NCBI RefSeq assembly: GCF_000377405.1
Contig: NZ_KB905024.1
Span: 62,001 to 126,000 of the forward strand
Source of the DNA: Thioalkalivibrio sp. ALE31
GTDB lineage: Bacteria; Pseudomonadota; Gammaproteobacteria; Ectothiorhodospirales; Ectothiorhodospiraceae
Length of the DNA stretch: 64,000 nucleotides
Direction of reading: 5' to 3'
Positions 1 to 56,327 of the stretch are shown here, one piece after another. Below the pieces are notes generated by a model that saw only the letters and a list, made by a program, of their open reading frames with translations, had not been told where the DNA came from and ran no database searches. A program made the translations under genes and the position numbers. The stretch's first letter is position 1, and each line of letters opens with the position of its first letter.

Positions 1-774
1 CCCCTCATCTAATGGCTTTGCTTTTATCGGCACCACATCGCCCCTATGGCGCTCGTGCCATATGAGAATACCCACACCGTGATCCATCATGTAACGCGCG
101 CGCGCGGCGCGTTCTTCCTCCGATGGGCAGTTGGGGTGATGTGCCGGACGGCGCCACCAGCCACACCCCTTCTGGTATTGGTCATAACTGGCCTGGCGTG
201 TCGTACACCCGAGGAGCTCCCAATACCGGCCCCGAAAACCGGCCCAACGCCGATACCATCGTGTCCTGAGATCCACAGCCGCAGTCTGGCCGGGCTTTAA
301 CTGGTCGAAGCGGGTTGCCATCTTGGTCAGCAACGGCATTCGGACAATCAGATCCGAATGCCAGAAAGCGAGGCGATCATCTACGAACAGAAATGCCAGC
401 TCCAACGGGAACATCATCGACATCGAGGGCAATTGCAGCTTCTCGTTGAAGTCAATCAAGACGCCGCCCTTGATCACCGGTGGGGGCCCGACCCGGGGGT
501 CGAAGCCGACCACTGGAGTCCAGCCCAGGTGCGCGGCCATCCGTTGTTGAACAAGACACCAGTCAGCATCCACGTTCCAACACAGCCACGGCCGTTCAAC
601 TCCCCGCAAAGCAGGCGACCATCGCTCCTCCGCATCGACCAGGGCAACGTGGAGTTCCTCCCTCGTAAGAGCCGCCCAGCTGCCTCTTCCTGCAGCCAAA
701 CGTCGCTGAGTGTCGTCTTTGAACAGGCTCTTGGCGAGACCAGTGGCCGGTTCTGCATTCATGTAACGATCCAT
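1..774 (-). CDS. Hypothetical protein, C-terminus off the left edge
   Basis: The frame stays open for 258 codons and leaves the window without a stop, so the C-terminus is not seen. The first ATG is at 774 (MDRYMNAEP), with a second in-frame ATG at 762; neither has a clear ribosome binding site. The visible part has no signal peptide or membrane span. It is rich in Trp, Arg and His, with a Cys/His-containing stretch (CGWWRRPAHHPNC) near the visible end. I do not recognise the family. It lies 78 bp downstream of the ABC exporter in the same direction and is probably on the same transcript, so a role in surface glycan metabolism is possible but only by association. Confidence 0.7.
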   Translation of the reverse strand, partial: MDRYMNAEPATGLAKSLFKDDTQRRLAAGRGSWAALTREELHVALVDAEERWSPALRGVERPWLCWNVDADWCLVQQRMAAHLGWTPVVGFDPRVGPPPVIKGGVLIDFNEKLQLPSMSMMFPLELAFLFVDDRLAFWHSDLIVRMPLLTKMATRFDQLKPGQTAAVDLRTRWYRRWAGFRGRYWELLGCTTRQASYDQYQKGCGWWRRPAHHPNCPSEEERAARARYMMDHGVGILIWHERHRGDVVPIKAKPLDEG

Positions 775-30568: not shown

Positions 30569-30931
30569 ACGGCCCAGCTTCCCGCCGACCGCACTGGCGC
30601 ATGGGAGCGCCCGCGGGCCGATCTGCAGCGAATACCTGTCCCCCGGACGCGCCTGCGTTGCGCCGGGACCACCCGGCTCTGGCACCGTCGTGCCGGTCCC
30701 GCCGGGTTTGGGGAAATCCCAGGTTCATTCAAGTGGGTTTGCGCACACCTGTCCACAGATGTCGGGATTGTTTACATACGGCGAACTGACGCGCAGATCA
30801 CGGCGCGGGCGATCGCACGGAGGCGGATGAATCCCGGGCGGTTCTGTGAACTGGTACAGGGTTTGCTACCGGGTCACTGGGTAGAGTCGTAAGCCTGCAG
30901 CGGCCCCTGCACCGACCCTCAAGGATCGCTG
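30569..30931. other. Divergent intergenic region
   Basis: This 363-bp region separates the leftward chain-length/autokinase operon from the rightward PilZ operon and should hold both promoters. It has an AT-richer patch around TTGTTTACATACGG (30769-30782) but no convincing -35/-10 pair. I find no sigma-54 element with the required 10-bp GG-GC spacing. No gene is seen. Confidence 0.5.
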
Positions 30932-31504
30932 ATGAGTCACGAAAAGTTGGCACTGGAGCTCGCGGACTTCTGGTTCCCGGCGATCGCGGATCAACCCTGG
31001 GAGGAACGCCTGCGCATCCTGGACGAGGTCCACGGCCAGCTGTACCAGGATCTGGAGACCGTCGGCGAGTATGAACAGGTCTCCGCCAGCTTCGTGGCGG
31101 CCTTGATCGACCGACTGGGGTCACCCCCGATCACGCATCCGGCGCAGGCACAGATCTACGCCAGCTCGTCGGAGGAACGGCACTGGGGCGCGGCCATGGC
31201 ATGGCAGTTCGGCGAGGGACAGGACGCCGGGGCAACCACCCCGATGCCTGAGGAACGGCGGCGCTGGCCGCGCGAGATCGTCAACCGACTCACCGAGATG
31301 TGGGTGCAGGGACGACCGGCGCGCTGCCGGCTGGTGGACATCTCGCGCTACGGCGCACGCGTCATGCCGCTGCGCTACCAGCCGCGACTGCCCCCGGGAA
31401 CGCCCATCCGGGTCATGGTGGCGGAGGGCAGCGTGCGCGACGGCGTGGTGGTGTTTTCCAGTCCGCGCGGGGTCGGTCTGCAGTTCGCGAATGCCGCGCA
31501 CTGA
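30932..31504 (+). CDS. PilZ-domain protein
   Basis: A 190-residue protein. The C-terminal half (~105-188) is a PilZ domain with both c-di-GMP motifs: the Arg-rich ERRRWPRE at ~107 and DISRYGARV at ~137 (the D-x-S-x-x-G type). The N-terminal ~100 residues are helical and unassigned. It probably senses cyclic di-GMP and adjusts EPS production or the downstream operon. It ends about 25 bp before the first N-acyltransferase and is likely first in that transcript. Confidence 0.88.
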   Translation: MSHEKLALELADFWFPAIADQPWEERLRILDEVHGQLYQDLETVGEYEQVSASFVAALIDRLGSPPITHPAQAQIYASSSEERHWGAAMAWQFGEGQDAGATTPMPEERRRWPREIVNRLTEMWVQGRPARCRLVDISRYGARVMPLRYQPRLPPGTPIRVMVAEGSVRDGVVVFSSPRGVGLQFANAAH

Positions 31505-31529: not shown

Positions 31530-32354
31530 ATGGGAGCAGAAACATGCATTATCCGAATACGGACTCGACACCCAACCGAAGTACAGACACACCCCCTCGA
31601 CCGCCCGCCGCATCCGGTTCCGGATGCGGCTCTGCGCGTGAATAGGGCCGGACGGTTCCGCGCCTATCTCGCACGCTCGGAGGCCGCCCGACGGATCCAT
31701 TTCCGCCTGCGCTACGAGGTGTACTGCCGCGAAACCGGTTTCGAACCCGCCGAACAGCACCCGGAAGGCATCGAGCGCGATGCCTACGACGAGCATGCCG
31801 AGCATTTCCTGATCAGCCACGAAGGCCGCCCGCCGGACGCTCGCTGGGTGGGCGCCATGCGCCTGATCCTGCCGGGGAACCAACCCCTGCCGACCACGGC
31901 GAACTGCCGGCTGTTTCCCGAGGTGGCAGCCCAGTCCTGGGAACCCGCGCTGGAGGTGTCGCGCCTGATCGTGCGCGGGGCTTCGCCCGAGGTGCTCTAT
32001 CACCTGTGCCAGGCCTCCCAGGAGTACGCGCGGCGCCACGGCTACCGCCGGATGTTCTTCCTGGTGCGCCCGGCGCTCGTGCGACTGCTGCGACGCCACG
32101 GCCTGCCCATCGAGGTGTGCGGCGCCCCCCACCGTCATCGTGGTACCCGCATCCCGTGCCTCGCGCACACGGAGGCCGCGGGCAAGGCCCTGCGCGCCTG
32201 GCGAGCGCGCCTGCAACTCCCGGCAGCGGCGGAGATTCCCCACTACACTGCGTGGGAAGAACCCGCCACGGGCGGGGCGCCGCATCCGACGGAGGTGCCC
32301 GCCGCGTGGGGGCCGCCACCGGACGTGGCGGGGCTTGCAGCAGGAGGAAACTAG
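31530..32354 (+). CDS. XrtA-associated N-acyltransferase 1 (TIGR03694-like, AHL-synthase fold)
   Basis: An autoinducer-synthase-like N-acyltransferase. The conserved set is visible: FRLRYEVYCRETGFE, then DAYDEHAEHFLI, GAMRLI and EVSRLIV, matching the invariant Arg, Asp/His, Arg and Glu-x-x-Arg positions of LuxI-fold enzymes. These enzymes move an acyl chain from acyl-ACP to an amine. The start is uncertain. ATG 31530 gives 274 residues but has no ribosome binding site. GTG 31638 (VNRAGRF) gives 238 and begins where homology begins. A GTG-started second copy follows after 2 bp. The C-terminal ~50 residues are Pro/Ala-rich. Confidence 0.85.
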   Translation: MGAETCIIRIRTRHPTEVQTHPLDRPPHPVPDAALRVNRAGRFRAYLARSEAARRIHFRLRYEVYCRETGFEPAEQHPEGIERDAYDEHAEHFLISHEGRPPDARWVGAMRLILPGNQPLPTTANCRLFPEVAAQSWEPALEVSRLIVRGASPEVLYHLCQASQEYARRHGYRRMFFLVRPALVRLLRRHGLPIEVCGAPHRHRGTRIPCLAHTEAAGKALRAWRARLQLPAAAEIPHYTAWEEPATGGAPHPTEVPAAWGPPPDVAGLAAGGN

Positions 32355-32356
32355 TC

Positions 32357-33232
32357 GTGGAAAGCGACTCGATCGTCAGCGGGTTCAAGCGGTACTTCGA
32401 CCTCTCCCAGCGCACCGGGGAACACCTGGAGGACATCCAGCATCTTCGCTACCAGGTGTACTGCAAGGAGTTCGGCTTCGAGCGGGAGGAGGATTGCCCG
32501 GGCCACAAGGAGGTCGACGCGTACGACGCCCAGGCCTGGCACTGCCTGCTGGAGCACAAGCCCAGCGGGATGGCCGCCGGCTGTGTGCGCGTAGTGCATG
32601 TCGACACCCGGGACCCGATCGGACAGCTGCCCATGGAGCGCCATTGCCACGACAGCTTTTTCGACACCCCCTGGCGCCCGGACCGGCTGGAGCGCGACAA
32701 CGTCTGCGAGGTGTCCCGGCTCGCCGTGCACAGCATGTTCCGCCGCCGCAACGGCGAGGCCGCCACCCCGATCGGGGACATCGAGGCCCTGAAACTCTCG
32801 CCCGACCAGATCCGCGTGTTCCCGATCCTCGCGGTCAGCCTGTTCGTGGCCGCAACCCTGCTCTGCGTGCACTACCGCAAGCAGCATGCCTTCGCGATGA
32901 TGGAGCCGGCCCTCGCCCGCATCCTGCGGCATACCGGGCTGGAGTTCACCCAGATCGGCGAGGTCGTGCACTATCATGGCAAGCGCGCGGCGTTCTACAT
33001 CGACTCCGGCGAGGCACACGAAAGCATCCAGCGATCGAGTGCCCTGAGCGAGCTGTGCCGGCACGTGGAGTCGACCTTGCTGCGCGCCCCGCGTGTTCCC
33101 CCGGCGGTGACATCCGCGCAGATGCTCCGCTTCCCGGGCGCTGCCGGGTGCCCTGTCGTCCGCCCGACCGGCCGGACACGCCTGCCGCTACCGGCACGCT
33201 CGCAACCGGGACTCAACGGGTTGGCGCATTGA
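32357..33232 (+). CDS. XrtA-associated N-acyltransferase 2 (TIGR03694 type)
   Basis: A 291-residue protein from GTG 32357, which has a strong AGGAGG nine bases upstream. The AHL-synthase-fold motifs are clear: FKRYFDLSQ, then HLRYQVYCKEFGFE (~30), VDAYDAQAWHCLL (~57), AGCVRVV and CEVSRLAV (~120). It is the better family match of the two adjacent transferases. The C-terminal ~60 residues after the core are low-complexity. It should take acyl-ACP and an amino acceptor, and neither substrate is known. Its stop overlaps the E1-like start (TTGA), so the two are translationally coupled. Confidence 0.88.
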   Translation: MESDSIVSGFKRYFDLSQRTGEHLEDIQHLRYQVYCKEFGFEREEDCPGHKEVDAYDAQAWHCLLEHKPSGMAAGCVRVVHVDTRDPIGQLPMERHCHDSFFDTPWRPDRLERDNVCEVSRLAVHSMFRRRNGEAATPIGDIEALKLSPDQIRVFPILAVSLFVAATLLCVHYRKQHAFAMMEPALARILRHTGLEFTQIGEVVHYHGKRAAFYIDSGEAHESIQRSSALSELCRHVESTLLRAPRVPPAVTSAQMLRFPGAAGCPVVRPTGRTRLPLPARSQPGLNGLAH

Positions 33233-34131
33233 GTTCCGGGTTCGACTACCAGACGGCCTTCGCCCGAACGGTTGGCTGGGTGACGCCGGCCGAACTGCAG
33301 CGGCTGCGCGGCGCCCGCATCGCGATCGCCGGTCTTGGCGGGGTCGGCGGCGCCCACCTGCTGACCCTGGTGCGCCTCGGTATCGGCCATTTCCGCATCG
33401 CCGACCCCGACATCTTCGAGCTGCACAACATGAACCGCCAGGTCGGCGCGGCCCTGTCGCGGCTGGACCGCCCCAAGGTCGAGGTGCTGGAGGAGATGGC
33501 CCGGGACATCAACCCGGAACTCGAGATCGACGCCTTTGCGCAGGGCGTCCACGCCGACAACCTGGAGGCCTTCCTCGACGGCGTGGATGTCTACGTGGAC
33601 GGCCTCGACTTCTTCGCCTTCGACATCCGGCGCCAGGTCTTCCGGGCCTGTGCCGAGCGCGGCATCCCCGCCGTCACGGTGGCCCCGCTCGGCATGGGGG
33701 CCGCCCTGCTGAACTTCCGCCCCGACGGGATGAGCTTCGACGCCTACTTCGACCTGCACGACGACCTGGACGACGAGGAACTGGCCCTGCGCTTCATGAT
33801 CGGCCTGGCGCCCGCGATGCTGCAGATGGGCTACCTGGCCGACCCGACAGCCGTCGACCTGGCGGCACGCCGCGGCCCCTCCACGCCGATGGCCTGCGAC
33901 CTGTGCGCCGGGGTCATGGGCACCGAGGTGCTCAAGCTGCTGCTGGGGCGCGGCGCGCAAACCTGGGCCCCGCGGGGCGTGCACTTCGACGCCTACCGCC
34001 AGCGCCTCGCCCGCACCTGGCGCCCCGGGGGCAATCGCAACCCGCTCCACCGCCTGCTGATCCGGATCGCCCGCCGGCGACTGCGCGCCCAGCGCGCGCA
34101 CCAGCGGGCCGCGAACCCGGAGGTACAATGA
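33229..34131 (+). CDS. E1/ThiF-family adenylyltransferase
   Basis: A 300-residue protein from TTG 33229, which overlaps the preceding stop. The Rossmann ATP-binding loop GLGGVGG is at 35-41. IADPDIFELHNMNRQVG (~64) has the conserved Asp and Arg of E1/MoeB/ThiF, RPKVEVLEEM (~82) the lysine, and VYVDGLDFF (~120) the second Asp. Near the end MACDLCAGVMGTEVLK carries two Cys, but no full CxxC-x-CxxC zinc site is seen. Such enzymes adenylate a C-terminal Gly or a carboxylate. No ThiS, MoaD or other ubiquitin-like partner is in the operon, so the target is unknown and may be the acyl product. Confidence 0.88.
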   Translation: MSSGFDYQTAFARTVGWVTPAELQRLRGARIAIAGLGGVGGAHLLTLVRLGIGHFRIADPDIFELHNMNRQVGAALSRLDRPKVEVLEEMARDINPELEIDAFAQGVHADNLEAFLDGVDVYVDGLDFFAFDIRRQVFRACAERGIPAVTVAPLGMGAALLNFRPDGMSFDAYFDLHDDLDDEELALRFMIGLAPAMLQMGYLADPTAVDLAARRGPSTPMACDLCAGVMGTEVLKLLLGRGAQTWAPRGVHFDAYRQRLARTWRPGGNRNPLHRLLIRIARRRLRAQRAHQRAANPEVQ

Positions 34132-34135
34132 CGCC

Positions 34136-34951
34136 ATGATGAACCGCACCGCCATGTTCCTCGGCGCGGGCCTCCTGCTCGCGGTCGCCACCCTGCCCGC
34201 CGCGGCGCTGGCGGAGGAATCCGCGGCGCGCGAGCTGGCACGCGCCGTCCACGAGCGCCCGGACGGGGACGATGCCGTCACCCGGGGGATCATGACACTC
34301 ACCGGGGGCGGCCGCCGCGAGCGTGTGCGCGAAAGCTACGAATATCGGCTGGATGGCGAGGAGCCCGGTGCCAGCCGCAACCTCATTCGCTTTACGTCGC
34401 CGCGCAACATTGCCGACACGGCCATACTGGTCCACAACCACCCGGGCGGCGATGTCGACCAGTGGCTCTACCTGCCCGCGATCCAGCGCGAGCGCCGCAT
34501 CAGCAGCGAGAACCGGGGCGGCAGCTTCGTGCAGTCCGAGCTCTACTTCGAGGACCTGGAAGACCGCGAACCGCACAAGGACCACCATCGCATCCTGGGC
34601 GAGGACGCCTACGAGGGCACCCCGGTCACCGTGCTCGAGAGCGTGCCCGTGGACAGCGGCAACTCCGTCTACAGCAAGCGGGTCAGCTGGATCCACGAGG
34701 AGACCCTCCTGCCGCTGCGTATCGACCTGTACGAAGGGGGCGAAGAGCCCGCGAAGCGCCTGGAGGTACAGCGGATCGAGGAGATCCAGGGCTACTGGAC
34801 GGTAACCCGCAGCTCCATGACCGATCTTGCCAGCGGCCGCACCACCATCCTCGAGGTCGAGGACGTGACCTACAACAGCGGTCTCCCGGACGAGCTATTC
34901 ACCCTCCGCGGCCTGTCGGACCCGAGCCTTGCGCGCCCCTATCGCCCATGA
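34136..34951 (+). CDS. Periplasmic LolA-like outer-membrane lipoprotein-sorting protein
   Basis: A 271-residue secreted protein. It has a signal peptide (MFLGAGLLLAVATLPAAALA) and a LolA/LolB-like half-barrel region. Segments RNLIRFTSPRNIADTAILV (~82), DQWLYLPAIQRERRIS (~105) and FTLRGLSDPS near the end match the outer-membrane lipoprotein-sorting family (PF17131). A GGAGG sits 12 bp before the ATG. This family commonly travels with RND/MMPL transporters and is thought to carry a lipid-like cargo across the periplasm. It starts 4 bp after the E1-like stop. Confidence 0.87.
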   Translation: MMNRTAMFLGAGLLLAVATLPAAALAEESAARELARAVHERPDGDDAVTRGIMTLTGGGRRERVRESYEYRLDGEEPGASRNLIRFTSPRNIADTAILVHNHPGGDVDQWLYLPAIQRERRISSENRGGSFVQSELYFEDLEDREPHKDHHRILGEDAYEGTPVTVLESVPVDSGNSVYSKRVSWIHEETLLPLRIDLYEGGEEPAKRLEVQRIEEIQGYWTVTRSSMTDLASGRTTILEVEDVTYNSGLPDELFTLRGLSDPSLARPYRP

Positions 34952-36878
34952 AGCGCCCACGCCCCGGCCCGGGGGATGGCGCGCCACGGTGCTCGCCGGG
35001 CTGCTGGTGCTGGGGCCAATGCCGCTGGCCGCCGCGGCGCCGGCCCCCTATACCGTGCAGCCGGGCGACACCCTCTGGAGCATCGCCCGCGATCTGCGCC
35101 CCGATCCGTCCGTCCGCATCCAGGCCATGGCGCAGGCGCTGTATGCCCGCAACCCGGATGCCTTTGACGGCGGACCCGAGGGCCTGAAGGCCGGGGCGAC
35201 GCTCCAGCCGCCCGCGCCGGACGAGCTTGCGCGCACCGAACCCGCGCCCATCCCGGGCGCCGGCAACTACTACACCGTGCGCGCCAGCGACACCCTGTGG
35301 AGCGTGGCCGAGCGCCTGCGCCCGGACCCGCGCATCCCCACTCGGGAGATGGTCCAGCGCCTGTTCGAACACAATCCGCACGCCTTCGACGGCGACGTGC
35401 ATACCCTGCGCGCCGGCGCGGTGCTGCAGGTCCCGGACATGCCCACGGCTGGGTCCGCCGCTGCGCCCGTCGCCGTCGCCGACGCATCCTCCGCTCCCGC
35501 GAGCGACGCCGCGCCTGACACTCCGGCACCGTCGCGCGACACCCCAAACGGTGATGCCGAAGACGAAGCACAGCGCGCGTTCGTATTCGGCGAGGAGTCG
35601 GCCGAGGATGCGGACGCGGACACCCAGACCGGCGCCGCCGCCTGGGACCTGCGGGTAGAGGACGCCCGCATCGAACTGGGCGTGCTGGGCACATCCGGGC
35701 GCCCCGTGGACCATGTGCAGCACGGTCGCGGCGTGGTCAGTGCCCGCCGCGACCTGAACGAGGCCTGGGAGCTGCGCCTGGGCGCGCGCGCGGACATCCA
35801 GGCCCAGCAGGGCGGCGACTACCCGAGCACCACCCGCGCACGCGCCGACTATGACGAAAATTTCCTGCGCTACCGGGGCGATCGTACGCGCGTCACCGTG
35901 GGCACCCAGCGCATCCTGTGGGGACGGGTGGACGAGATCCCGCCCACCGACCGGCTCAGCACCAAGGACCTGACCCGCTTCGGCCTGGACCCGTACGGCG
36001 AACGGCGCCGCGCGAACCCGGCGATCCGCGCGGAATTCTTCCAGGGGCCGTGGCATGCCGACCTGGTCTTCCTGCCCCTGTTCCGGCCGGCGGAGCTGCC
36101 TGACCGTGACAGCCTCTGGCACCCGGTGGACCGCAACCGCGGACGCCTGCTGGGGCTTCCACAGGACCCGGCGCTGGCGCCGGTGATCCAGCAGGCCGCG
36201 CTGGACGACGATGTCTCCGGCAACGGCGGCGCCGGCGTGCGCCTGGGGCGCTCCGGCCGCGGCGCCGATTTCGCCGTCACCGTCCAGCGGGCCCGGCATT
36301 CGCAGCCCTACTACCGCTTCGATACCGACACCCGCCAGGCCATCCTGGCCGGCCAGCCACCCGGGGACCCGACGCTGGAGGCCGTCCACCCGCGCACCTG
36401 GGTGGTGGGCGGCGACACCGCCTTTGCCACCGGCGCCTGGACCTGGCGCGCCGAGGCCGCCTGGCTGAGCGACGTGCCGGTGACCCGCGCGGATGACCTG
36501 CGCCAGACCACGGTGGAGGGGGTCGACTGGGTGGTCGGCGCCGAGGGCTTCCCCGGAGACGGGGACTTCCGCATGACCACCCAGTTGGCGGGCCAGCACC
36601 TGCTGAACGCCGGCGACATGCTGGATGCGCGCGAAAGCTACTTCCTGACCGGAGAACTGGAGAGCCCGTTTGCCGACTACAACTGGCGCGCCCGCCTGCG
36701 CTATTCGATCGGGCTCAACCGGCGCGACGTCTATCTGAACCCGGAACTGGCATGGATCGCCCGCGAACCCATGGAATTCTATATCGGCCTGCACTGGCTG
36801 GACGGGGCCGAGGGCACGGCCGGGGGCTTCTACCGCGATAACCGCATGCTCGTCACCGGCTGGCGGGGGCAGTTCTGA
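34929..36878 (+). CDS. LysM-repeat/outer-membrane barrel fusion (DUF1302-like)
   Basis: A 649-residue protein from TTG 34929, overlapping the previous gene by 23 bp. A signal peptide (VLAGLLVLGPMPLAAAA) is followed by two FimV-like LysM repeats, each about 55 residues: YTVQPGDTLWSIARDLRPDP and YTVRASDTLWSVAERLRPDP. An acidic linker (~165-225) follows, then a C-terminal ~420-residue strand-rich domain. Segments TRVTVGTQRILWGRVDEIP and RYSIGLNRRDVYLNPELAW there resemble DUF1302/porin-type barrels, and the protein ends in Phe. It probably binds peptidoglycan and spans the outer membrane, forming the exit for the transporter that follows. Confidence 0.8.
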   Translation: MRAPIAHEAPTPRPGGWRATVLAGLLVLGPMPLAAAAPAPYTVQPGDTLWSIARDLRPDPSVRIQAMAQALYARNPDAFDGGPEGLKAGATLQPPAPDELARTEPAPIPGAGNYYTVRASDTLWSVAERLRPDPRIPTREMVQRLFEHNPHAFDGDVHTLRAGAVLQVPDMPTAGSAAAPVAVADASSAPASDAAPDTPAPSRDTPNGDAEDEAQRAFVFGEESAEDADADTQTGAAAWDLRVEDARIELGVLGTSGRPVDHVQHGRGVVSARRDLNEAWELRLGARADIQAQQGGDYPSTTRARADYDENFLRYRGDRTRVTVGTQRILWGRVDEIPPTDRLSTKDLTRFGLDPYGERRRANPAIRAEFFQGPWHADLVFLPLFRPAELPDRDSLWHPVDRNRGRLLGLPQDPALAPVIQQAALDDDVSGNGGAGVRLGRSGRGADFAVTVQRARHSQPYYRFDTDTRQAILAGQPPGDPTLEAVHPRTWVVGGDTAFATGAWTWRAEAAWLSDVPVTRADDLRQTTVEGVDWVVGAEGFPGDGDFRMTTQLAGQHLLNAGDMLDARESYFLTGELESPFADYNWRARLRYSIGLNRRDVYLNPELAWIAREPMEFYIGLHWLDGAEGTAGGFYRDNRMLVTGWRGQF

Positions 36879-39136
36879 TGCGCTGGCTGCTGGGGCGCCC
36901 GCGACTGGCACTGGGCATCCTGGCCCTGCTGCTCTTCCTGCCCGGCCCGGTTCTCCTGCAGGTCAACCTGGATAACGCCCCCGAGTCCTATTTCCCCGAG
37001 GACGCCGCCGCCGTCACCTTCGATCGCGAACTGCGCGAACGCTTCCCTCAAGATCAGGTACTGGTCGGCCTGTTTACCGGCAGCGAGCTGTTCGAGGCCG
37101 ATTTCCTGCAACGCATCGACGCGCTGGTGCGCGACATGGAGGCCGACCCGAGCGTCGAACGGGTCCTGTCGGTCACCACCCTGGACCACATTCGGGCCAC
37201 GACCGACGGCTTCACCGTGGACCGCCTGGTGGACGGCCGCGCGCTGGACGAACGCACGGCCGATGAATGGCGCGAGCGGGTCTTGCGTGACCGCTTCGCC
37301 CCCGGCCTGGTAGCCGGCCCCGGCGGCGAGGCGCTGGCGGTGGTCGTGCGCCCGCACGCGCTGGAAAACAGCCTGCAGCGCCTGCAGCTGGAACGCCTGC
37401 TCCGCGACCGGATCGCCGAGCACGACCTGGAAGGCGATCTGACCGCCATCGCCGGCCATATCGCCCTGGATGTCGCGCAGCTCCGGGCGATGGTCAAGGA
37501 CCTCGCCTTCCTGGTTCCGGGCACCATGACCATCAGCCTCCTGCTGCTGTGGTGGCTGTTCCGGCGCCCGCTGGTGGTCGTGCTGTCCGCTGCCACGATC
37601 AGCGCGGTCACCGGGCCCGCGATCGCCCTGCTGATCCTGCTCGACCGGCCGTTCACACTGATCTCCGCCATCCTGCCGCCCCTGCTGACCGCATTGACGG
37701 TGGCGATGCTGATGCACTTCTTCAACGCCCTGCTGCATGCCGCGCAGCGCGGCCACCGGGGGCGCGCGCGCGTGGAGGCGGCGCTGGCCGCCGTGGCCCG
37801 TCCCACCGCGTTCATGGCGCTGACCACCGCGGCGGGGCTGGCGTCGCTGCAGGTCAGCAGCATCCGGCCGATCGAGACCTTCGGTCTGATCGGGGCCTTC
37901 GGCGTGCTCCTCGCCGCGGCGGTCGTACTGCTGCTCCTGCCGGCGATCATGGTGCGCTGGGATCGCGGCGACTGGCTCGCGCCGCAGCGCGGCCTGCGCC
38001 TGCTCGACCGCTTCACCGCGCGGGCGGCACACCTGGCGATCCGCCGCGCCGGCTGGGTCCTGCTGGCCACCGCCATCCTGGTGGCCCTGGCGATCCCGCA
38101 GATCCGGCAGGTCGAGGTCGAAACCGACCTCTACGCCTTCTTCGACGACGACCACTCGATCACCCAGGCGACCCGCGCAGTGGAGCGCGAACTCTCCGGG
38201 GTGATGGCGCTGGAGGTGGTGTTCGACGGGCCGGACTGGGACAGCCTGCAGGACCCGGAGCGCATGCAGGCCATCCAGCGGGTGCAGAACTGGCTGGACC
38301 AGCGCCCCGAGGTGGACTATAGCCTGTCCCTGCCGGATCTCGTCGCCGAGATGCACTGGGCCTTCAACGAGGAAGACCCGACCTTCCGGCACATCCCGGA
38401 CGACCCCAACCTGGTCGCCCAGTACCTGTTCATCTACGACGGCCGCGACCTGTTCGATGCCGTCGACCGCGACTTCGAACGCAGCCGCATCCTGCTCAAC
38501 CTGAACGCCCTCGGGGCGCGGGCCATCAACGCACTGATGGACGACCTGCGCGGCCACCTGGAAGCCAACCCGCCGGCCGACCTGGAATGGGACATGGCCG
38601 GGATGGCCCGACTTTTTGCGGATCAGGAACGCCTGCTGATCGAGGGGCAGCTGCACAGCCTGTATGCCGTGGCCGCGATGATCACGCTGCTGATGCTGCT
38701 GATGTGGCGCTCGATCCCGCTGACGCTGCTCAGCATGATCCCCAACCTGGCACCGGTGGCGATGATCTTCGCCCTGATGGGCCTGCTCGGCATCTGGCTG
38801 GACATGGCCACGGCCATGATTGCCAGTGTCGCCATCGGCATCGCCGTGGACGACACCATCCACATCCTGCACAACTATCGCCAGCGCCGCGGGCGGGGCA
38901 GTCCGGTCGCCTGGGCGCTCGCCCGCAGCTTCCGCCGAAGCGGGCGCGCGATCACCGCCACCACCATCGTGCTGGTGGGCCAGTTCCTGCTGCTAGCCCT
39001 GTCCGACTTCCAGCCCACGGCCGCCTTTGGCTGGTTGACCGCCTTCGGGCTGATCGCGGCGCTACTGTTCGACCTGCTGGTACTACCGGCCCTGCTGGTC
39101 GTCGGGCACCGGCTCGCGCGGGCCCGCACGGCCTGA
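36878..39136 (+). CDS. RND/MMPL-family transporter
   Basis: A 752-residue inner-membrane exporter. It has two sets of helices: TM1 near 10-28, a ~150-residue periplasmic loop, then TM2-6 (~210-365), and the same pattern repeated from ~395 to the end. The family motif GIAVDDTIHILHNY lies in the second bundle (~665). It resembles hopanoid-transporter or MMPL-like single-subunit RND proteins that move lipids. Its ATG overlaps the stop of the barrel gene by one base. It is last in the coupled six-gene operon, and a 380-bp gap follows. Confidence 0.9.
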   Translation: MRWLLGRPRLALGILALLLFLPGPVLLQVNLDNAPESYFPEDAAAVTFDRELRERFPQDQVLVGLFTGSELFEADFLQRIDALVRDMEADPSVERVLSVTTLDHIRATTDGFTVDRLVDGRALDERTADEWRERVLRDRFAPGLVAGPGGEALAVVVRPHALENSLQRLQLERLLRDRIAEHDLEGDLTAIAGHIALDVAQLRAMVKDLAFLVPGTMTISLLLLWWLFRRPLVVVLSAATISAVTGPAIALLILLDRPFTLISAILPPLLTALTVAMLMHFFNALLHAAQRGHRGRARVEAALAAVARPTAFMALTTAAGLASLQVSSIRPIETFGLIGAFGVLLAAAVVLLLLPAIMVRWDRGDWLAPQRGLRLLDRFTARAAHLAIRRAGWVLLATAILVALAIPQIRQVEVETDLYAFFDDDHSITQATRAVERELSGVMALEVVFDGPDWDSLQDPERMQAIQRVQNWLDQRPEVDYSLSLPDLVAEMHWAFNEEDPTFRHIPDDPNLVAQYLFIYDGRDLFDAVDRDFERSRILLNLNALGARAINALMDDLRGHLEANPPADLEWDMAGMARLFADQERLLIEGQLHSLYAVAAMITLLMLLMWRSIPLTLLSMIPNLAPVAMIFALMGLLGIWLDMATAMIASVAIGIAVDDTIHILHNYRQRRGRGSPVAWALARSFRRSGRAITATTIVLVGQFLLLALSDFQPTAAFGWLTAFGLIAALLFDLLVLPALLVVGHRLARARTA

Positions 39137-39410: not shown

Positions 39411-39428
39411 TTGGCACGGAGCCTGCTT
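39411..39428 (+). promoter_or_regulatory. Sigma-54 (RpoN) promoter of the PEP-CTERM gene
   Basis: TTGGCACGGAGCCTGCTTT fits the -24/-12 consensus: the GG at 39413-39414 and the GC at 39425-39426 have exactly 10 bp between them, and TGGCACG is a perfect -24 box. It lies about 90 bp before the PEP-CTERM gene start. PEP-CTERM genes are known to depend on RpoN and the PrsK/PrsR pair, both of which are encoded a few kb downstream here. Confidence 0.75.
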
Positions 39429-39516: not shown

Positions 39517-40485
39517 ATGAACGCGAAAAAAGTACTTCTCGCTTCGCTCTTTGTCGGCATGTTCGCCGCCGGCGCGAGCACGGCGACAGCGGCAGAGATC
39601 ATCGACTTCGACATCAACCTCGACGCCACCGCGGACTACAGCGGTTCGGTCGAGAACATTCGCCGCATCCAGTTCGACCTGAACACCCAGACCTTCCAGT
39701 ACGTTCAGGACCCGGACAGCCCGGTTCAGGTCGGCGATGTCTTCTATGACCGCGGCTACGGCGATGCATCGGGGTTCCGCACCTCGCTCAATACCGCTGC
39801 GCCTCGGACCGGGGACCGATTGGGTGAGGACTACTCCATGGGGCTCCTCTGGGATGAACTGCGCGGGGTGGTCACCGGGACCGATACCGTCGGCGGCAAC
39901 TACGCGGTCAACGCCAACTACACCTCGGTAGGCACCGACAACTTCCAGCTCTTCGTCTCCGACCTGAACCCCGGATTCGGTCAGGACTATGAAGCCGCGG
40001 CGGCCCACTTCAGCGCTGGCGAACAGGTGATGGAGCTGGCACTGGTGTCCGGCAACAGCATCCTGGAGTTCGACAGCGCGGGCGGCGCTTTCATCGAAGG
40101 GACCTTCACCTTCGAATTCCAGGTCGTGAACGTACTGCCGGGCTTCTGGTTCACCGCCGACGGCATCGACTTCGCCGATCTGCTGGAGGACGAGGAAGGC
40201 GCCCCGACGTTCATCGTCTCGGCCTTCGCCAGCGCCGGCACCATCCAGGAACCGGGTCCCGTGACCTTCTTCGGCGAAGACGCCAACAACGTCTACGGCG
40301 ACGAGCGCGAAGGGCAGACCCTCTTCAGCGAGACCCAGTCCACCCACGACGGCAGCCTGCGCTTCGCGGTGCCGGAGCCGGGCACCCTGGCGCTGATGGG
40401 CCTGTCCCTGCTGATCCTGGCGGGCTTCATCGGGGTCGGTGGCATGCGCCGCCGCTCCAACAGCACCCACCGCCAGGCCGCATAA
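39517..40485 (+). CDS. PEP-CTERM sorting-domain protein (XrtA substrate)
   Basis: A 322-residue secreted protein. The N-terminal signal peptide is KKVLLASLFVGMFAAGASTA. The body is acidic, Asp/Asn/Gly-rich and strand-like, with no Cys. The C-terminal sorting signal is complete: VPEPG at ~285, a hydrophobic stretch LALMGLSLLILAGFIGVGG, then basic MRRRS. XrtA should cut it at the membrane; the mature protein is probably matrix- or floc-associated and may be glycosylated. AGGAG precedes the ATG. It is monocistronic, with a sigma-54 promoter and its own terminator. Confidence 0.95.
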   Translation: MNAKKVLLASLFVGMFAAGASTATAAEIIDFDINLDATADYSGSVENIRRIQFDLNTQTFQYVQDPDSPVQVGDVFYDRGYGDASGFRTSLNTAAPRTGDRLGEDYSMGLLWDELRGVVTGTDTVGGNYAVNANYTSVGTDNFQLFVSDLNPGFGQDYEAAAAHFSAGEQVMELALVSGNSILEFDSAGGAFIEGTFTFEFQVVNVLPGFWFTADGIDFADLLEDEEGAPTFIVSAFASAGTIQEPGPVTFFGEDANNVYGDEREGQTLFSETQSTHDGSLRFAVPEPGTLALMGLSLLILAGFIGVGGMRRRSNSTHRQAA

Positions 40486-40505: not shown

Positions 40506-40567
40506 GGTGACCCACTCCCCCCTGTGGGGTCACCGAGTTAAGGGCTCCCTCCGCGGAGCCCTTTTTT
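40506..40567 (+). terminator. Terminator after the PEP-CTERM gene
   Basis: Two hairpins in series follow the gene: GGTGACCC/GGGGTCACC (40506-40534), then GGGCTCC-CTCCGC-GGAGCCC (40542-40561) followed by six T (40562-40567). The second is a standard Rho-independent terminator. Confidence 0.85.
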
Positions 40568-53977: not shown

Positions 53978-54472
53978 TCAGTGTGGCGTGAAATACCTGA
54001 TTGTCATGTCGCGCTGCGCCGAGTGCAATCCGAATGGCCAGCCGCTTTTCGCATGGAGGAAAGCCGCTGGGCTCCACCCGTAAGGACGGCCGGCGAGAAG
54101 TAGCATCAGTGGCTCCCAGCGCATATCCGGGGTTTTCCGGGCGATCCGGGACAGTGTCCTGCGGTCCAGCCAGCTCATCTGCGCCTGACCGTCGGGGTGA
54201 GTGTGCCAATCGCCCAAGTAGGTTTCGCGCCCCTGTGTGGCGAAAAACCGTACGTTGATGGCTTCCTGCTGGAAGTCGGCATCCGGGGAAAAGCGGTAGC
54301 GTTGATGCGTGGCCCCCGGGCCGGGGCCAACGATGTCCATAACGACGAAGTCATCGCCAACGGCATAGCCCAAGAGCGAACCGCCTGTCTCTAAAGGGTA
54401 CTGTGCCTCGGCCACTTCGTGGAGCAACCGCGACGCGGGCTCCGCGATCCAAACTGTTGGTGGTTCACTCAT
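53978..54472 (-). CDS. JAMM/MPN isopeptidase, Cap3-like
   Basis: A 164-residue JAB-domain metalloprotease. The complete JAMM motif is present: Glu28 in LETGGSLLG, His90 and His92 in DWHTHPDG, Ser100 and Asp103. Its length and the ETGG...HTHP pattern match the TIGR02256 family that includes CBASS Cap3 (VC0181). Such enzymes cut isopeptide bonds made by the adjacent E2-E1. The start overlaps the E2-E1 stop by 8 bp. No nucleotidyltransferase (CD-NTase) or effector gene is near. Confidence 0.9.
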   Translation of the reverse strand: MSEPPTVWIAEPASRLLHEVAEAQYPLETGGSLLGYAVGDDFVVMDIVGPGPGATHQRYRFSPDADFQQEAINVRFFATQGRETYLGDWHTHPDGQAQMSWLDRRTLSRIARKTPDMRWEPLMLLLAGRPYGWSPAAFLHAKSGWPFGLHSAQRDMTIRYFTPH

Positions 54473-56165
54473 GGTGGGGGCAATCGGGGTGCCGCTCAAG
54501 GCGGATCGTCTTCCATGTGGGCGCAATAGGAGCCCCGCTCAGTTCGTCCCACAGGGAAAGTACGGCGGCATTCCAGTCGAAATCCGGGTAGCCCCCGGCG
54601 GCATCGGCACATAGTGTGGAAGCCACCAGGCGGGTAGCCATCAGCGATACGTGATCCATATCGAAACCCGTGCCGGTGAAGGTGGGGTGGAAGCAACCAG
54701 GAGGCTGGACATCGGCGCCTTTTTCTTGGGGCGGGCGTTTGATGCGGTCATCGTACATGTGGCGCTGAAAACAGTTCCAGCACCCCGGGGTGTGCCCCGG
54801 AGCGACGCGGCCCACCGTGCCGCCCCAGCCGCCCGGTGTGGCGGTGGCCCATACGTACGGGAGCCCGCGCGAGCGAGCGACATCCGAGAGGTAGTGGTTT
54901 ACGGCCCACTCCGCCGTTGTATCAACGATGAGGTCGACGTCTTCGAGCAATTGCTCCAGAAGCTGTTTCGAGTTGATGCCGATCGCACCAATCGAAAAGT
55001 GCCCTACACGGACACCAAGGTAGGGGAACTGCGCCCGAAGAAGTCGTGCAACCGCCTCGGATTTGGGGAGTCCTACTAATTCGATACCACCAATCCAGCG
55101 TACCAAGTTGCCAACTTGAACAAAGTCTCGGTCGACACAGACCAGTTGTCCGAGCCCTGCCCGCCCAAGTTGTAGTGCCAGCGGGGCGCCAAGGGCGCCT
55201 AGCCCAGCGACTAGGACGCGCTTGCCGGCAAGCGGCGAAACCCGAGGGACCCGGGCTTGAAGGGCGTCCCGAGAGAGGACTTCCGCCCATGCGGGGGAGT
55301 GGCTGATGCCCGCGCGGCCTTGATGGGCGACCTTCTTGCGCACAGCAAAGGCCCATGTATCCATCCAGTCGCCCCGATAATCACGCTCCTCGGGAAACAG
55401 CAGGCCGACAACATCTGGGCCGCCTTTGTATTTCGGTGTCGCCAAGCTAGGCCAAATGGCCTTAGCCTCGTCCAGAATGGCCGTGCCCACTTTTTTTGGC
55501 GGAGTGGGGAGGCGCACCCACCGAGCTCGAAGCTTTTTCGTCGACGGTCTCGAGTAGAGCTCGCTCCAGTTTCCGGCGTCCAGCTCCGCGATCCGGGCGC
55601 CGTTGCTGTCGAAAACCTCCGTCACGGCCCCGCGTAAGCGGCCGTTCGGATCAAAGCCCGGATCGAGGGCTATCGTAAGGGTGCCTCGGTCAATATCGGG
55701 GGGGATCTCCCAGGCGCCGACCAGGACTTTGGTGCCCGACGGATAATCGAGATACCAAGAAGAGCGAAGAGCCTCATGCCCTTCGAGTTCGGGTCCGCGC
55801 TCATCGTCTAAATGCGTTTCGAGGATCGCGGGTACCTTCTCTTGGAGGAATCCAGCGAGCGTATCCTCCGAACTGATCCACGCATTTTGCAGGTCGGCCA
55901 ATAGGCACAGATCGTTCCCGTACGGGTGAAGATGGCGCCCAGAGGGAAAAGTCGGCGCGGTGATTCCGAACGGGAAGTAGGGGTACTCCGCGGGGAACGT
56001 GACGGTGAGCAGGTGGGATCGCTCACCGTCTGGATACTGCACATACAGTATGAGGGATCCGGCTTCGAGTTCGGGTTGGTCAACCTCGAACTCAAAGCCT
56101 GCCTCGCGGAGCAGACGAAGCTCTTTTTCGTACCGCTCCGGGAACTCCTGGAACCACGCGGTCAT
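54465..56165 (-). CDS. E2-E1 fusion ubiquitin-transferase-like protein, Cap2-like
   Basis: A 566-residue two-part enzyme. The N-terminal UBC/E2-like domain has TFPAEYPYFPF (~57), HPYGNDLCLLAD with the candidate catalytic Cys87, and Trp96. A linker domain (~130-300) follows. The C-terminal E1 domain has GLGALG (321-326), Asp345 in VDRDFVQVGN, DLIVDTTAEWAV (~412) and the Cys pair in GCWNC (462/465). The architecture and length match CBASS Cap2, which conjugates the CD-NTase C-terminus to targets. Here no CD-NTase precedes it; the gene starts one base inside the stop of a 41-residue protein ending in Gly. Confidence 0.9.
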   Translation of the reverse strand: MTAWFQEFPERYEKELRLLREAGFEFEVDQPELEAGSLILYVQYPDGERSHLLTVTFPAEYPYFPFGITAPTFPSGRHLHPYGNDLCLLADLQNAWISSEDTLAGFLQEKVPAILETHLDDERGPELEGHEALRSSWYLDYPSGTKVLVGAWEIPPDIDRGTLTIALDPGFDPNGRLRGAVTEVFDSNGARIAELDAGNWSELYSRPSTKKLRARWVRLPTPPKKVGTAILDEAKAIWPSLATPKYKGGPDVVGLLFPEERDYRGDWMDTWAFAVRKKVAHQGRAGISHSPAWAEVLSRDALQARVPRVSPLAGKRVLVAGLGALGAPLALQLGRAGLGQLVCVDRDFVQVGNLVRWIGGIELVGLPKSEAVARLLRAQFPYLGVRVGHFSIGAIGINSKQLLEQLLEDVDLIVDTTAEWAVNHYLSDVARSRGLPYVWATATPGGWGGTVGRVAPGHTPGCWNCFQRHMYDDRIKRPPQEKGADVQPPGCFHPTFTGTGFDMDHVSLMATRLVASTLCADAAGGYPDFDWNAAVLSLWDELSGAPIAPTWKTIRLERHPDCPHHE

Positions 56166-56290
56166 TAGCCCACGGGGCGATGCTTCGGTGGGCGCGGCGG
56201 CTCGGACGGTTCTCCCGGCGTCTTTTCGGGAGGGCCCGGCGGAACGTCCGGGCGCTCGGGCTTCTCGGGTTTGTCGTCGGGTTTGGACAT
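56165..56290 (-). CDS. 41-residue proline-rich protein with C-terminal Gly, upstream of the E2-E1
   Basis: A very short protein made almost only of Pro, Glu, Lys, Asp and Arg (MSKPDDKPEKPERPDVPP at the start, ending KHRPVG). It must be disordered. It has a strong AAGGAG seven bases before the ATG and a good promoter. Its TAA overlaps the E2-E1 ATG by one base, so it is expressed and coupled. The terminal Gly is what E1 enzymes adenylate, so it could be the conjugated partner; equally it could be a leader that sets expression of the enzyme. I know of no named family. Longer starts are possible but lack a binding site. Confidence 0.65.
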   Translation of the reverse strand: MSKPDDKPEKPERPDVPPGPPEKTPGEPSEPPRPPKHRPVG

Positions 56291-56327
56291 GGTGCTGCTC
56301 CTTTTCCATTTTCGCTCGACCATGGCC

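Follow-up and report, generated by a model that had tools for sequence, protein, structure and literature searches.

A 64,000-nucleotide stretch of the genome of the salt-loving sulfur bacterium Thioalkalivibrio sp. ALE31 (contig NZ_KB905024.1, positions 62,001 to 126,000; hereafter called the window) contains an exosortase A (XrtA)/PEP-CTERM locus, and within it lies a series of tightly coupled genes that starts with two N-acyltransferases (AT1 and AT2) and a ThiF-family adenylating enzyme (E1). We lean slightly towards regarding AT1, AT2 and E1 as an acyl-oxazolone (azlactone) pathway of the XrtA/PEP-CTERM system that lacks its desaturase and is probably joined to export by the RND, LolA-like and barrel proteins encoded next to it. 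In such a pathway, one or both of the LuxI/FeeM-fold transferases would acylate an amino acid at its amino group, drawing the fatty acyl chain from acyl carrier protein (acyl-ACP) or acyl-CoA; E1, of the PRK08223 family, would then activate the resulting N-acyl amino acid by adenylating its carboxylate, and attack by the amide oxygen would close the ring to give a saturated 2-alkyl-oxazol-5-one. With no desaturation by a flavin-dependent oxidase (FDO, of the nitroreductase superfamily), the product would be a saturated, reactive azlactone or its opened form, and the HAE3-like RND transporter, the LolA-like protein and the LysM-barrel protein would take up this lipid at the inner membrane and convey it through the periplasm as far as the cell surface. 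The first-pass annotation of this DNA had proposed that an N-acyl conjugate is made, modified or activated, and exported; the families, the fold, the adenylating type of E1 and the adjacency of the genes agree with this outline, but the usual FDO partner of E1 had been overlooked.

The two transferases and the E1 enzyme

AT1 (31638..32354), AT2 (32357..33232; the PEP-CTERM/exosortase-associated type) and E1 (33229..34131; a predicted N-acyl amino acid activase/cyclase) are encoded on the plus strand, as are the LolA-like (34136..34951), LysM-barrel (34929..36878) and RND (36878..39136) genes that follow. The AT1 stop is separated from the GTG of AT2 by +2 bp, AT2 overlaps E1 in TTGA (33229-33232), the gap from E1 to the LolA-like gene is +4 bp, the LysM-barrel gene begins with TTG at 34929 and overlaps its predecessor (-23 bp), and TGATG at 36878 joins it to the RND gene. 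Direct reading gave exactly the six open reading frames (ORFs), the order, the spacings of -23 to +4 bp and the two stop/start motifs that had been noted before. The six genes of the operon as first drawn therefore stand, but AT1 had been started at ATG 31530, and neither the PilZ gene upstream nor the PEP-CTERM gene downstream had been mentioned. GTG 31638 is the more likely start, because in five of the seven named Thioalkalivibrio loci the AT1 frame is open without any earlier start codon, and because residues 1-40 of the longer form (from 31530) are modelled below a predicted local distance difference test score (pLDDT) of 50, the overall pLDDT of that model being 80.3.

Both transferases exceed the TIGR03694 cut-off of 111.95 bits (AT1 with 121.8, AT2 with 201.4) in a window that also encodes XrtA, and AT1 matches the FeeM family PF21926 with 38.0 bits. 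A Foldseek search with the AT1 model returned BjaI (E 7.7e-10), TofI and LasI, with FeeM at rank 16 (E 2.3e-6) and TM-scores by query of 0.4-0.5. Seven charged residues are kept in both proteins, namely R61, E82, D84, D87, R111, E142 and R145 (AT1 numbering from 31530), and these we take to resemble the catalytic set of the LuxI family. The fold of acyl-homoserine lactone (AHL) synthases, which AT1 had been assigned earlier and which FeeM shares, is borne out by these structural matches, and we predict from profile and fold that both transferases act as LuxI/FeeM-fold N-acyl amino acid synthases. An AHL-type signal synthase was rejected as the first choice, as both proteins score better to TIGR03694 than to Autoind_synth (a LuxR gene was not sought). 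A recent tandem duplication was rejected as well: AT1 and AT2 are only 25-31% identical in alignments and fall into two strongly separated clades of the tree, as expected of deep paralogues, and it is AT2 that groups with the transferases of most other XrtA loci.

E1 matches NF006077 (PRK08223) with 483.8 bits against a cut-off of 266, and Pfam ThiF with 146.4 bits. All of 85 sequences have its R70, K83 and D127 (window numbering), which E. coli ThiF shares, and none of the 85 has a cysteine at the positions of ThiF C169, C172 and C184, which serve the sulfur relay and zinc; most of them retain a CxxC at another place, 223/226. That the adenylation residues are kept and the ThiF cysteines are gone supports adenylation without sulfur relay, and the earlier assignment of E1 to the adenylating type holds in this respect. 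E1 reaches 317.7 bits with the E1-FDO model PRK14851, below its cut-off of 1170, and NCBIfam labels both this model and PRK08223 as 'hypothetical protein'. One could also imagine a sulfur-carrier or ubiquitin-like protein as the substrate of E1, in the manner of ThiF, MoeB and the eukaryotic E1s, given that E1 belongs to the ThiF superfamily and that E. coli ThiF is its nearest solved structure by sequence. We find this scarcely credible, as the coupled operon has no room for a ThiS-like gene (a beta-grasp Gly-Gly protein was not sought genome-wide) and the relatives of E1 pair with FDO and N-acyltransferases; sulfur transfer of the ThiF/MoeB kind in particular was rejected, the relay and zinc cysteines being absent throughout.

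The oxidase that usually accompanies E1

The surroundings of E1 were compared in 80 loci of named genomes, of which 71 lie outside and 9 inside Thioalkalivibrio/Ectothiorhodospira. They rank highest among at least 557 confirmed relatives, so that the shares given here do not describe a random sample. It needs to be mentioned that the counts rest on profile or tblastn matches, with profiles built from our own sequences, since simple ORF calling proved unreliable (AT1, AT2 or E1 was replaced by antisense frames in some loci), and that two of the ten rows of the FDO alignment (A2) diverge from the rest (L092 with 22%, L109 with 28% to the first row). An FDO gene lies within 3 kb of E1 in 63 of the 71 loci outside the clade and forms one ORF with it in 20; in the more distant locus L033, an E1 that is 63% identical to the window's is fused to a nitroreductase-family FDO domain. 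Near the E1 of Thioalkalivibrio/Ectothiorhodospira, on the other hand, FDO was found in none of the nine named loci. An N-acyltransferase of TIGR03694 or FeeM type occurs within 10 kb of E1 in 45 of 71 loci outside and in 9/9 inside the clade (a count limited to the TIGR03694 type within 5 kb, 29/71, misses the FeeM type and is superseded by this one). As E1 pairs with FDO or an N-acyltransferase in other loci, it is not an orphan.

FeeM-type N-acyl amino acid synthases stand near E1 in 15 of the 71 loci (for example L055:9228-9971 and L064:5612-7342), and the three that were scanned reach 170-177 bits with PF21926; in one of the 15 loci, L065, a TIGR03694-like gene is present as well. The synthase, E1 and FDO activities seem to be joined in a single family model, NCBIfam PRK14852 (989 aa), where the FeeM-type synthase matches 81-223, the E1 of the window 313-590 and an E1-FDO fusion 314-796, and no match over the cut-off of this model was obtained among 299 genomes. 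The FDOs of the loci score 117-119 bits with the Rv1355c (TrzS) model, below its cut-off of 476.

It is conceivable that FDO is supplied from a distant place in the genome and that the pathway still leads to the full dehydro-oxazolone. The genome of the window indeed has one FDO-like gene far from the operon (G000:C4, L038:1165-2112), with 61.8 bits to the FDO profile. This gene, however, falls into the Acg family with 255.5 bits to NF047509 (cut-off 199), a model with which the four XrtA-locus FDOs that were scanned reach only 108-129 bits. Moreover, at E 1e-5 no FDO-like gene was found genome-wide in 9 of the 13 same-genus genomes with E1, and the other four, the window's included, have only remote matches (37-48 bits, against 596 bits for a true FDO used as positive control); among nine further FDO-less genomes six had no FDO-like gene and three had only remote matches (48-88 bits). 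We thus consider an FDO acting from another place very improbable. Weak matches to the FDO profile were also seen in 3 of the 12 other same-genus genomes with E1.

In the E1 tree, which is a quick, midpoint-rooted one with many weak forks, the 11 Thioalkalivibrio/Ectothiorhodospira rows form one set (Shimodaira-Hasegawa approximate likelihood-ratio test, SH-aLRT, 98) among largely FDO-bearing relatives, and such a placement is most simply read as a loss of FDO in this branch. At positions where 90% or more of the other E1 sequences agree, the FDO-less clade departs in its majority residue only at sites 14, 23 and 68, and it has a one-residue insertion.

E1 might also be part of a conjugate synthase: it would adenylate the N-acyl amino acid, but another nucleophile, possibly assisted by AT1, would attack the acyl-adenylate (or azlactone), and an N-acyl amino acid amide or ester would result instead of a free ring. 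The absence of FDO, the presence of two deeply diverged transferases sharing the conserved charged residues, and the distribution of AT1 would fit this idea: AT1-type transferases are present in 15 of the 19 rows without FDO and in 3 of the 63 rows with it, 11 of the 15 being of the window's clade (L055, L072 and L116, at most 1.5 kb from a contig end, are left out of these counts). With phylogeny controlled, however, only four independent pairs on supported branches were available and the test had no power. Nor is AT1 a strict replacement of FDO, being present genome-wide in 3/6 FDO-less and 4/20 FDO-bearing genomes. The latter figures come from 26 genomes hand-chosen among 42, five of which supplied rows of the AT1-type profile (A6); a gene was called AT1-type when A6 outscored A7 at the same place, and the FDO state was taken from the locus scan. 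The notion that AT1 replaced FDO is weakened by both results, and we hold a conjugate synthase to be unlikely, though not negligible.

The exosortase A locus, the export genes and their neighbours

E1 tracks exosortase A closely. Among 58 relatives, PRK08223 is over cut-off in 17 (the window's genome, 12 of the same genus and four beyond the genus), and XrtA is over cut-off in 17/17 of these against 4/41 genomes without E1 (Fisher 3e-11, uncorrected for the relatedness of the genomes). In 42 named E1 genomes, which were our choice among the 80 named loci, XrtA is over cut-off in 39 and gives some match in 41, with none at E 1e-30 in one; XrtA-locus markers lie inside 35 of the 80 loci themselves. 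N-acyl amino acid synthases were reportedly linked to exosortase systems by Craig, Cherry and Brady in 2011. Both transferases of the window resemble those synthases in exceeding the TIGR03694 cut-off, and differ from them in being two and in being coupled to an E1. In Methylomonas, disruption of one such synthase blocked the usual polysaccharide band and complementation reversed this, yet the same mutant also failed to grow in the set-up and two unrelated mutants behaved alike (PMC11072679). Our literature search found no link of an oxazolone, ThiF or nitroreductase to exosortase, the 2011 paper just named and de Rond 2021 being outside its reach.

The LolA-like periplasmic protein exceeds the cut-offs of both PF17131 (198.2 bits) and DUF1329 (39.5 bits). 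The next protein has two LysM domains (PF01476; FimV_core 85.1 bits), and its model (pLDDT 71.9, predicted TM-score (pTM) 0.57) shows two LysM-like units and a strand-rich C-terminus, with OmpF/OmpC porins as best Foldseek matches (TM by target 0.5-0.6); from this model, which is of moderate confidence, we predict a porin-like barrel of outer-membrane type. Aligned relatives of the barrel match DUF1302 (PF06980) in 9/16 and Wzi in 6/16 cases, and the window protein matches neither. The RND transporter reaches 110.8 bits with MMPL (PF03176), and its best NCBIfam match is TIGR00921/HAE3 with 167.1 bits, below the cut-off of 351.9. The identities given to these three proteins at first pass agree with the profiles, the model and Foldseek.

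The nearest named relatives are Thioalkalivibrio, and in the 16 other E1 genomes, each read over about 15-17 kb, every stretch with E1 also has a transferase gene. PilZ, AT1, AT2 and E1 follow in this order in 12/12 other same-genus E1 genomes, the PilZ gene being beside AT1 in 12 of the 16 relatives, and the LolA-like, barrel and RND genes come next in seven of those 12, which makes 8/13 with the window. Three more distant genomes (L034, L035, L036) have the same parts in different orders. The adjacency of transferases to E1 and RND genes, on which the first-pass annotation had staked its proposal, is therefore a recurrent one with conserved order. The complete export route that it had described is no fixed part of the operon: the set is missing beside E1 in 5 of the 13 same-genus genomes, and in these five no barrel homologue was found genome-wide and RND only as remote matches of about 30% identity. 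In one of them (L021:8186-9925) E1 is followed by a PEP-CTERM gene and an S-adenosylmethionine (SAM) methyltransferase gene, and the other four have ORFs of the same size and order.

It is thus plausible to ask whether the export genes are independent neighbours, which serve another compound of the XrtA system, either polysaccharide-linked or hydrophobic. Apart from the five genomes just described, this would agree with the loci outside the clade, where LolA and barrel genes are both within 10 kb of E1 in 17/71 and RND too in only three. It would also agree with G012, a same-genus XrtA genome without E1, which keeps both transferases and the export genes in a rearranged form (AT1-LolA-barrel at L155:4536-8260, and AT2, RND and a leftover barrel C-terminus at L156:6852-11801, more than 15 kb away) and seems to have undergone a rearrangement of the operon and a loss of E1. 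On the other hand, the genes are translationally coupled. Besides Thioalkalivibrio and Ectothiorhodospira, three other genomes have the set close to AT/E1 (G035, one of the three, is near Ectothiorhodospira by AT2), and even in G012 the export genes stay near the transferases. In another same-genus XrtA genome, G026, which has no E1 over cut-off, the transferases and the export set were both not found in the 38 kb read, and genome-wide there was no barrel and only a remote RND. Taken together, we regard independent neighbours as rather unlikely and think that the RND/LolA/barrel set probably exports the AT/E1 product, though this link is weaker than the reading of AT1, AT2 and E1 as a desaturase-less pathway.

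Several details were noticed in single relatives. In L025:13429-16512, a second PepA-like PEP-CTERM gene, 80% identical to the window's, stands behind a fragment that matches the 30 C-terminal residues of RND, which looks like a tandem duplication confined to that one relative. In G035 (L036:5312-8606), a 34-residue E1 remnant lies between the LolA-like and RND genes, which is the position of E1 in Ectothiorhodospira, and another E1, which has diverged strongly and shares 54% identity with that of the window, is found 3' of RND, so that E1 was apparently replaced. At one locus (L029 in the tblastn search, L043 in the profile search), tblastn reached no further than the LysM part of the barrel protein, and the profile detects the barrel.

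The XrtA locus of the window (exosortase A, TIGR03109, 360.8 bits) continues on the minus strand with a glycosyltransferase, FemAB, a deacetylase, an ATPase, an outer-membrane protein, a tyrosine kinase and a chain-length protein; PrsT and a PEP-CTERM-box response regulator are further right, and between these two groups the plus strand carries the genes from PilZ to the PEP-CTERM protein. The PilZ-domain gene (30932..31504, plus strand; PF07238 25.1 bits, cut-off 22.5) is possibly the first of the transcription unit and is 133 bp from AT1 if the latter begins at 31638. The PepA-like PEP-CTERM gene (39517..40485, plus strand) scores 59 bits with NF033554 floc_PepA, below the cut-off of 80, and a terminator-like hairpin lies 3' of it at 40540-40563. 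A sigma-54-like -24/-12 element, TGGTACAGGGTTTGCT (30852..30867, plus strand), is 80 bp upstream of the PilZ gene and is the best match before it in the window to the sigma-54 consensus; such an element also precedes PilZ in 7/7 named same-genus relatives, roughly between -67 and -95, counted from PilZ starts that are themselves approximate. Matches of this kind are not enriched across the window (11 found, 12.1 expected), and hence what argues for TGGTACAGGGTTTGCT is its position and its conservation in close relatives only. A second element, TGGCACGGAGCCTGCT (39412..39427, plus strand), 105 bp upstream of the PEP-CTERM gene, has one mismatch to the same consensus and was looked at in the window only. 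The operon may be under sigma-54 control. A sigma-70 scan found nothing. Elsewhere in the window, a 614-aa ORF on the minus strand (54465-56309) spans a weak match to the PRK08223 profile (E 5.9e-10) and may encode a different Rossmann-fold protein.

Comparison with known pathways and possible meaning

The combination of a transferase with E1 had been thought to be without precedent, but the acyl-oxazolone pathway starts with just such a pair, a transferase and a ThiF-type cyclase, and has FDO as its third part (PMC10404671, PMC12856293), and by analogy the pair is already known as the front end of acyl-oxazolone synthesis. In TyzABC and TrzAS of Mycobacterium and in OxzAB of Pseudoalteromonas rubra, a LuxI/FeeM-fold synthase likewise stands beside a ThiF-family ATP-dependent cyclase (PMC10404671, PMC12856293). 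Separate proteins, TyzA, TyzB and TyzC, cyclise and desaturate N-acyl tyrosine (PMC10404671), and TrzS (Rv1355c) performs an ATP-dependent cyclisation and then a desaturation of N-acyl tryptophan, giving acyl-tryptazolones (PMC12856293). Oxazolones do not survive acid or alcohols (PMC12856293). The tyz genes are flanked by a transporter gene that is likewise of MMPL type, mmpL9, for which the authors suggest a possible role in lipid movement (PMC10404671). Unlike these acyl-oxazolone sets, the operon of the window has no FDO (its genome has only the remote Acg-type gene), has two diverged transferases, and lies in an XrtA locus together with LolA-like and barrel genes. Clusters for kyonggic acid, thalassotalic acid and stieleriacine also combine NasY and ThiF (plus nitroreductase), in an operon-like order in two producers; they differ in that the dehydrotyrosine producers have the nitroreductase, and no export set is named for them in the part of the source available (PMC12479983). 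The export genes, in turn, resemble AmeABCD of Castellaniella defragrans (DUF1302, LolA/DUF1329, COG4447 and HAE3 RND), in which a LolA/DUF1329 periplasmic partner, an HAE3-like RND and an outer-membrane protein also occur together; a mutant without it was less tolerant of monoterpenes and showed a higher accumulation of Nile Red, and from the deletion phenotypes the system was proposed to export hydrophobic compounds (PMC6394551). In the window, by contrast, LysM is fused to the barrel and the genes are coupled to those of lipid biosynthesis, and no AmeC-like (COG4447) match was present among the eight genes scanned.

Several points weigh against the desaturase-less pathway. The defining third part of acyl-oxazolone synthesis, FDO, is absent from the operon; the inconstancy of the export set in the genus was described above. 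In 8 of the 71 loci outside the clade there is likewise no FDO near E1 (three of the eight are near a contig end), and 26/71 have neither a TIGR03694- nor a FeeM-type transferase within 10 kb, though some of them are cut by contig ends and other families were not sought. E1 matches the TrzS model NF005901 only weakly (62.7 bits over 18-149), and we know of no assayed member of PRK08223. When the tyz transferase and cyclase were expressed in cells but FDO was left out, no cyclised product could be detected (PMC12856293), so that an E1 deprived of this partner may fail to set free an oxazolone. Producers of kyonggic acid, thalassotalic acid and stieleriacine have ThiF and nitroreductase, and no oxazolone was observed from them (PMC12479983). 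On the other side, TrzS under limited oxygen accumulates the cyclised, saturated intermediate (PMC12856293). Set against each other, the tyz and TrzS results suggest that the product of AT1, AT2 and E1 may be reopened by water or by a second nucleophile.

Two things seem to be new here: how strongly the E1 of this pathway is tied to XrtA, and the existence of a branch which has shed the desaturase and keeps the cyclase, two transferases and often the export set. As a long shot, one may extend this to a scheme in which XrtA systems of beta- and gammaproteobacteria carry a built-in pathway from N-acyl amino acids to azlactones, and this branch, having dropped the desaturase so that the azlactone remains saturated and reactive, exports it through a dedicated RND/LolA/LysM-barrel route as a surface acyl donor that lipidates exopolysaccharide or proteins. 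If this were true, the azlactone, as a chemical acyl donor, would attach lipidated amino acids to exopolysaccharide or surface proteins. More generally, a chemistry for the PRK08223 E1 would give a small-molecule arm to a widespread surface-protein/exopolysaccharide system, and natural cyclase-only operons would reveal how a ThiF-type cyclase acts without its oxidase.

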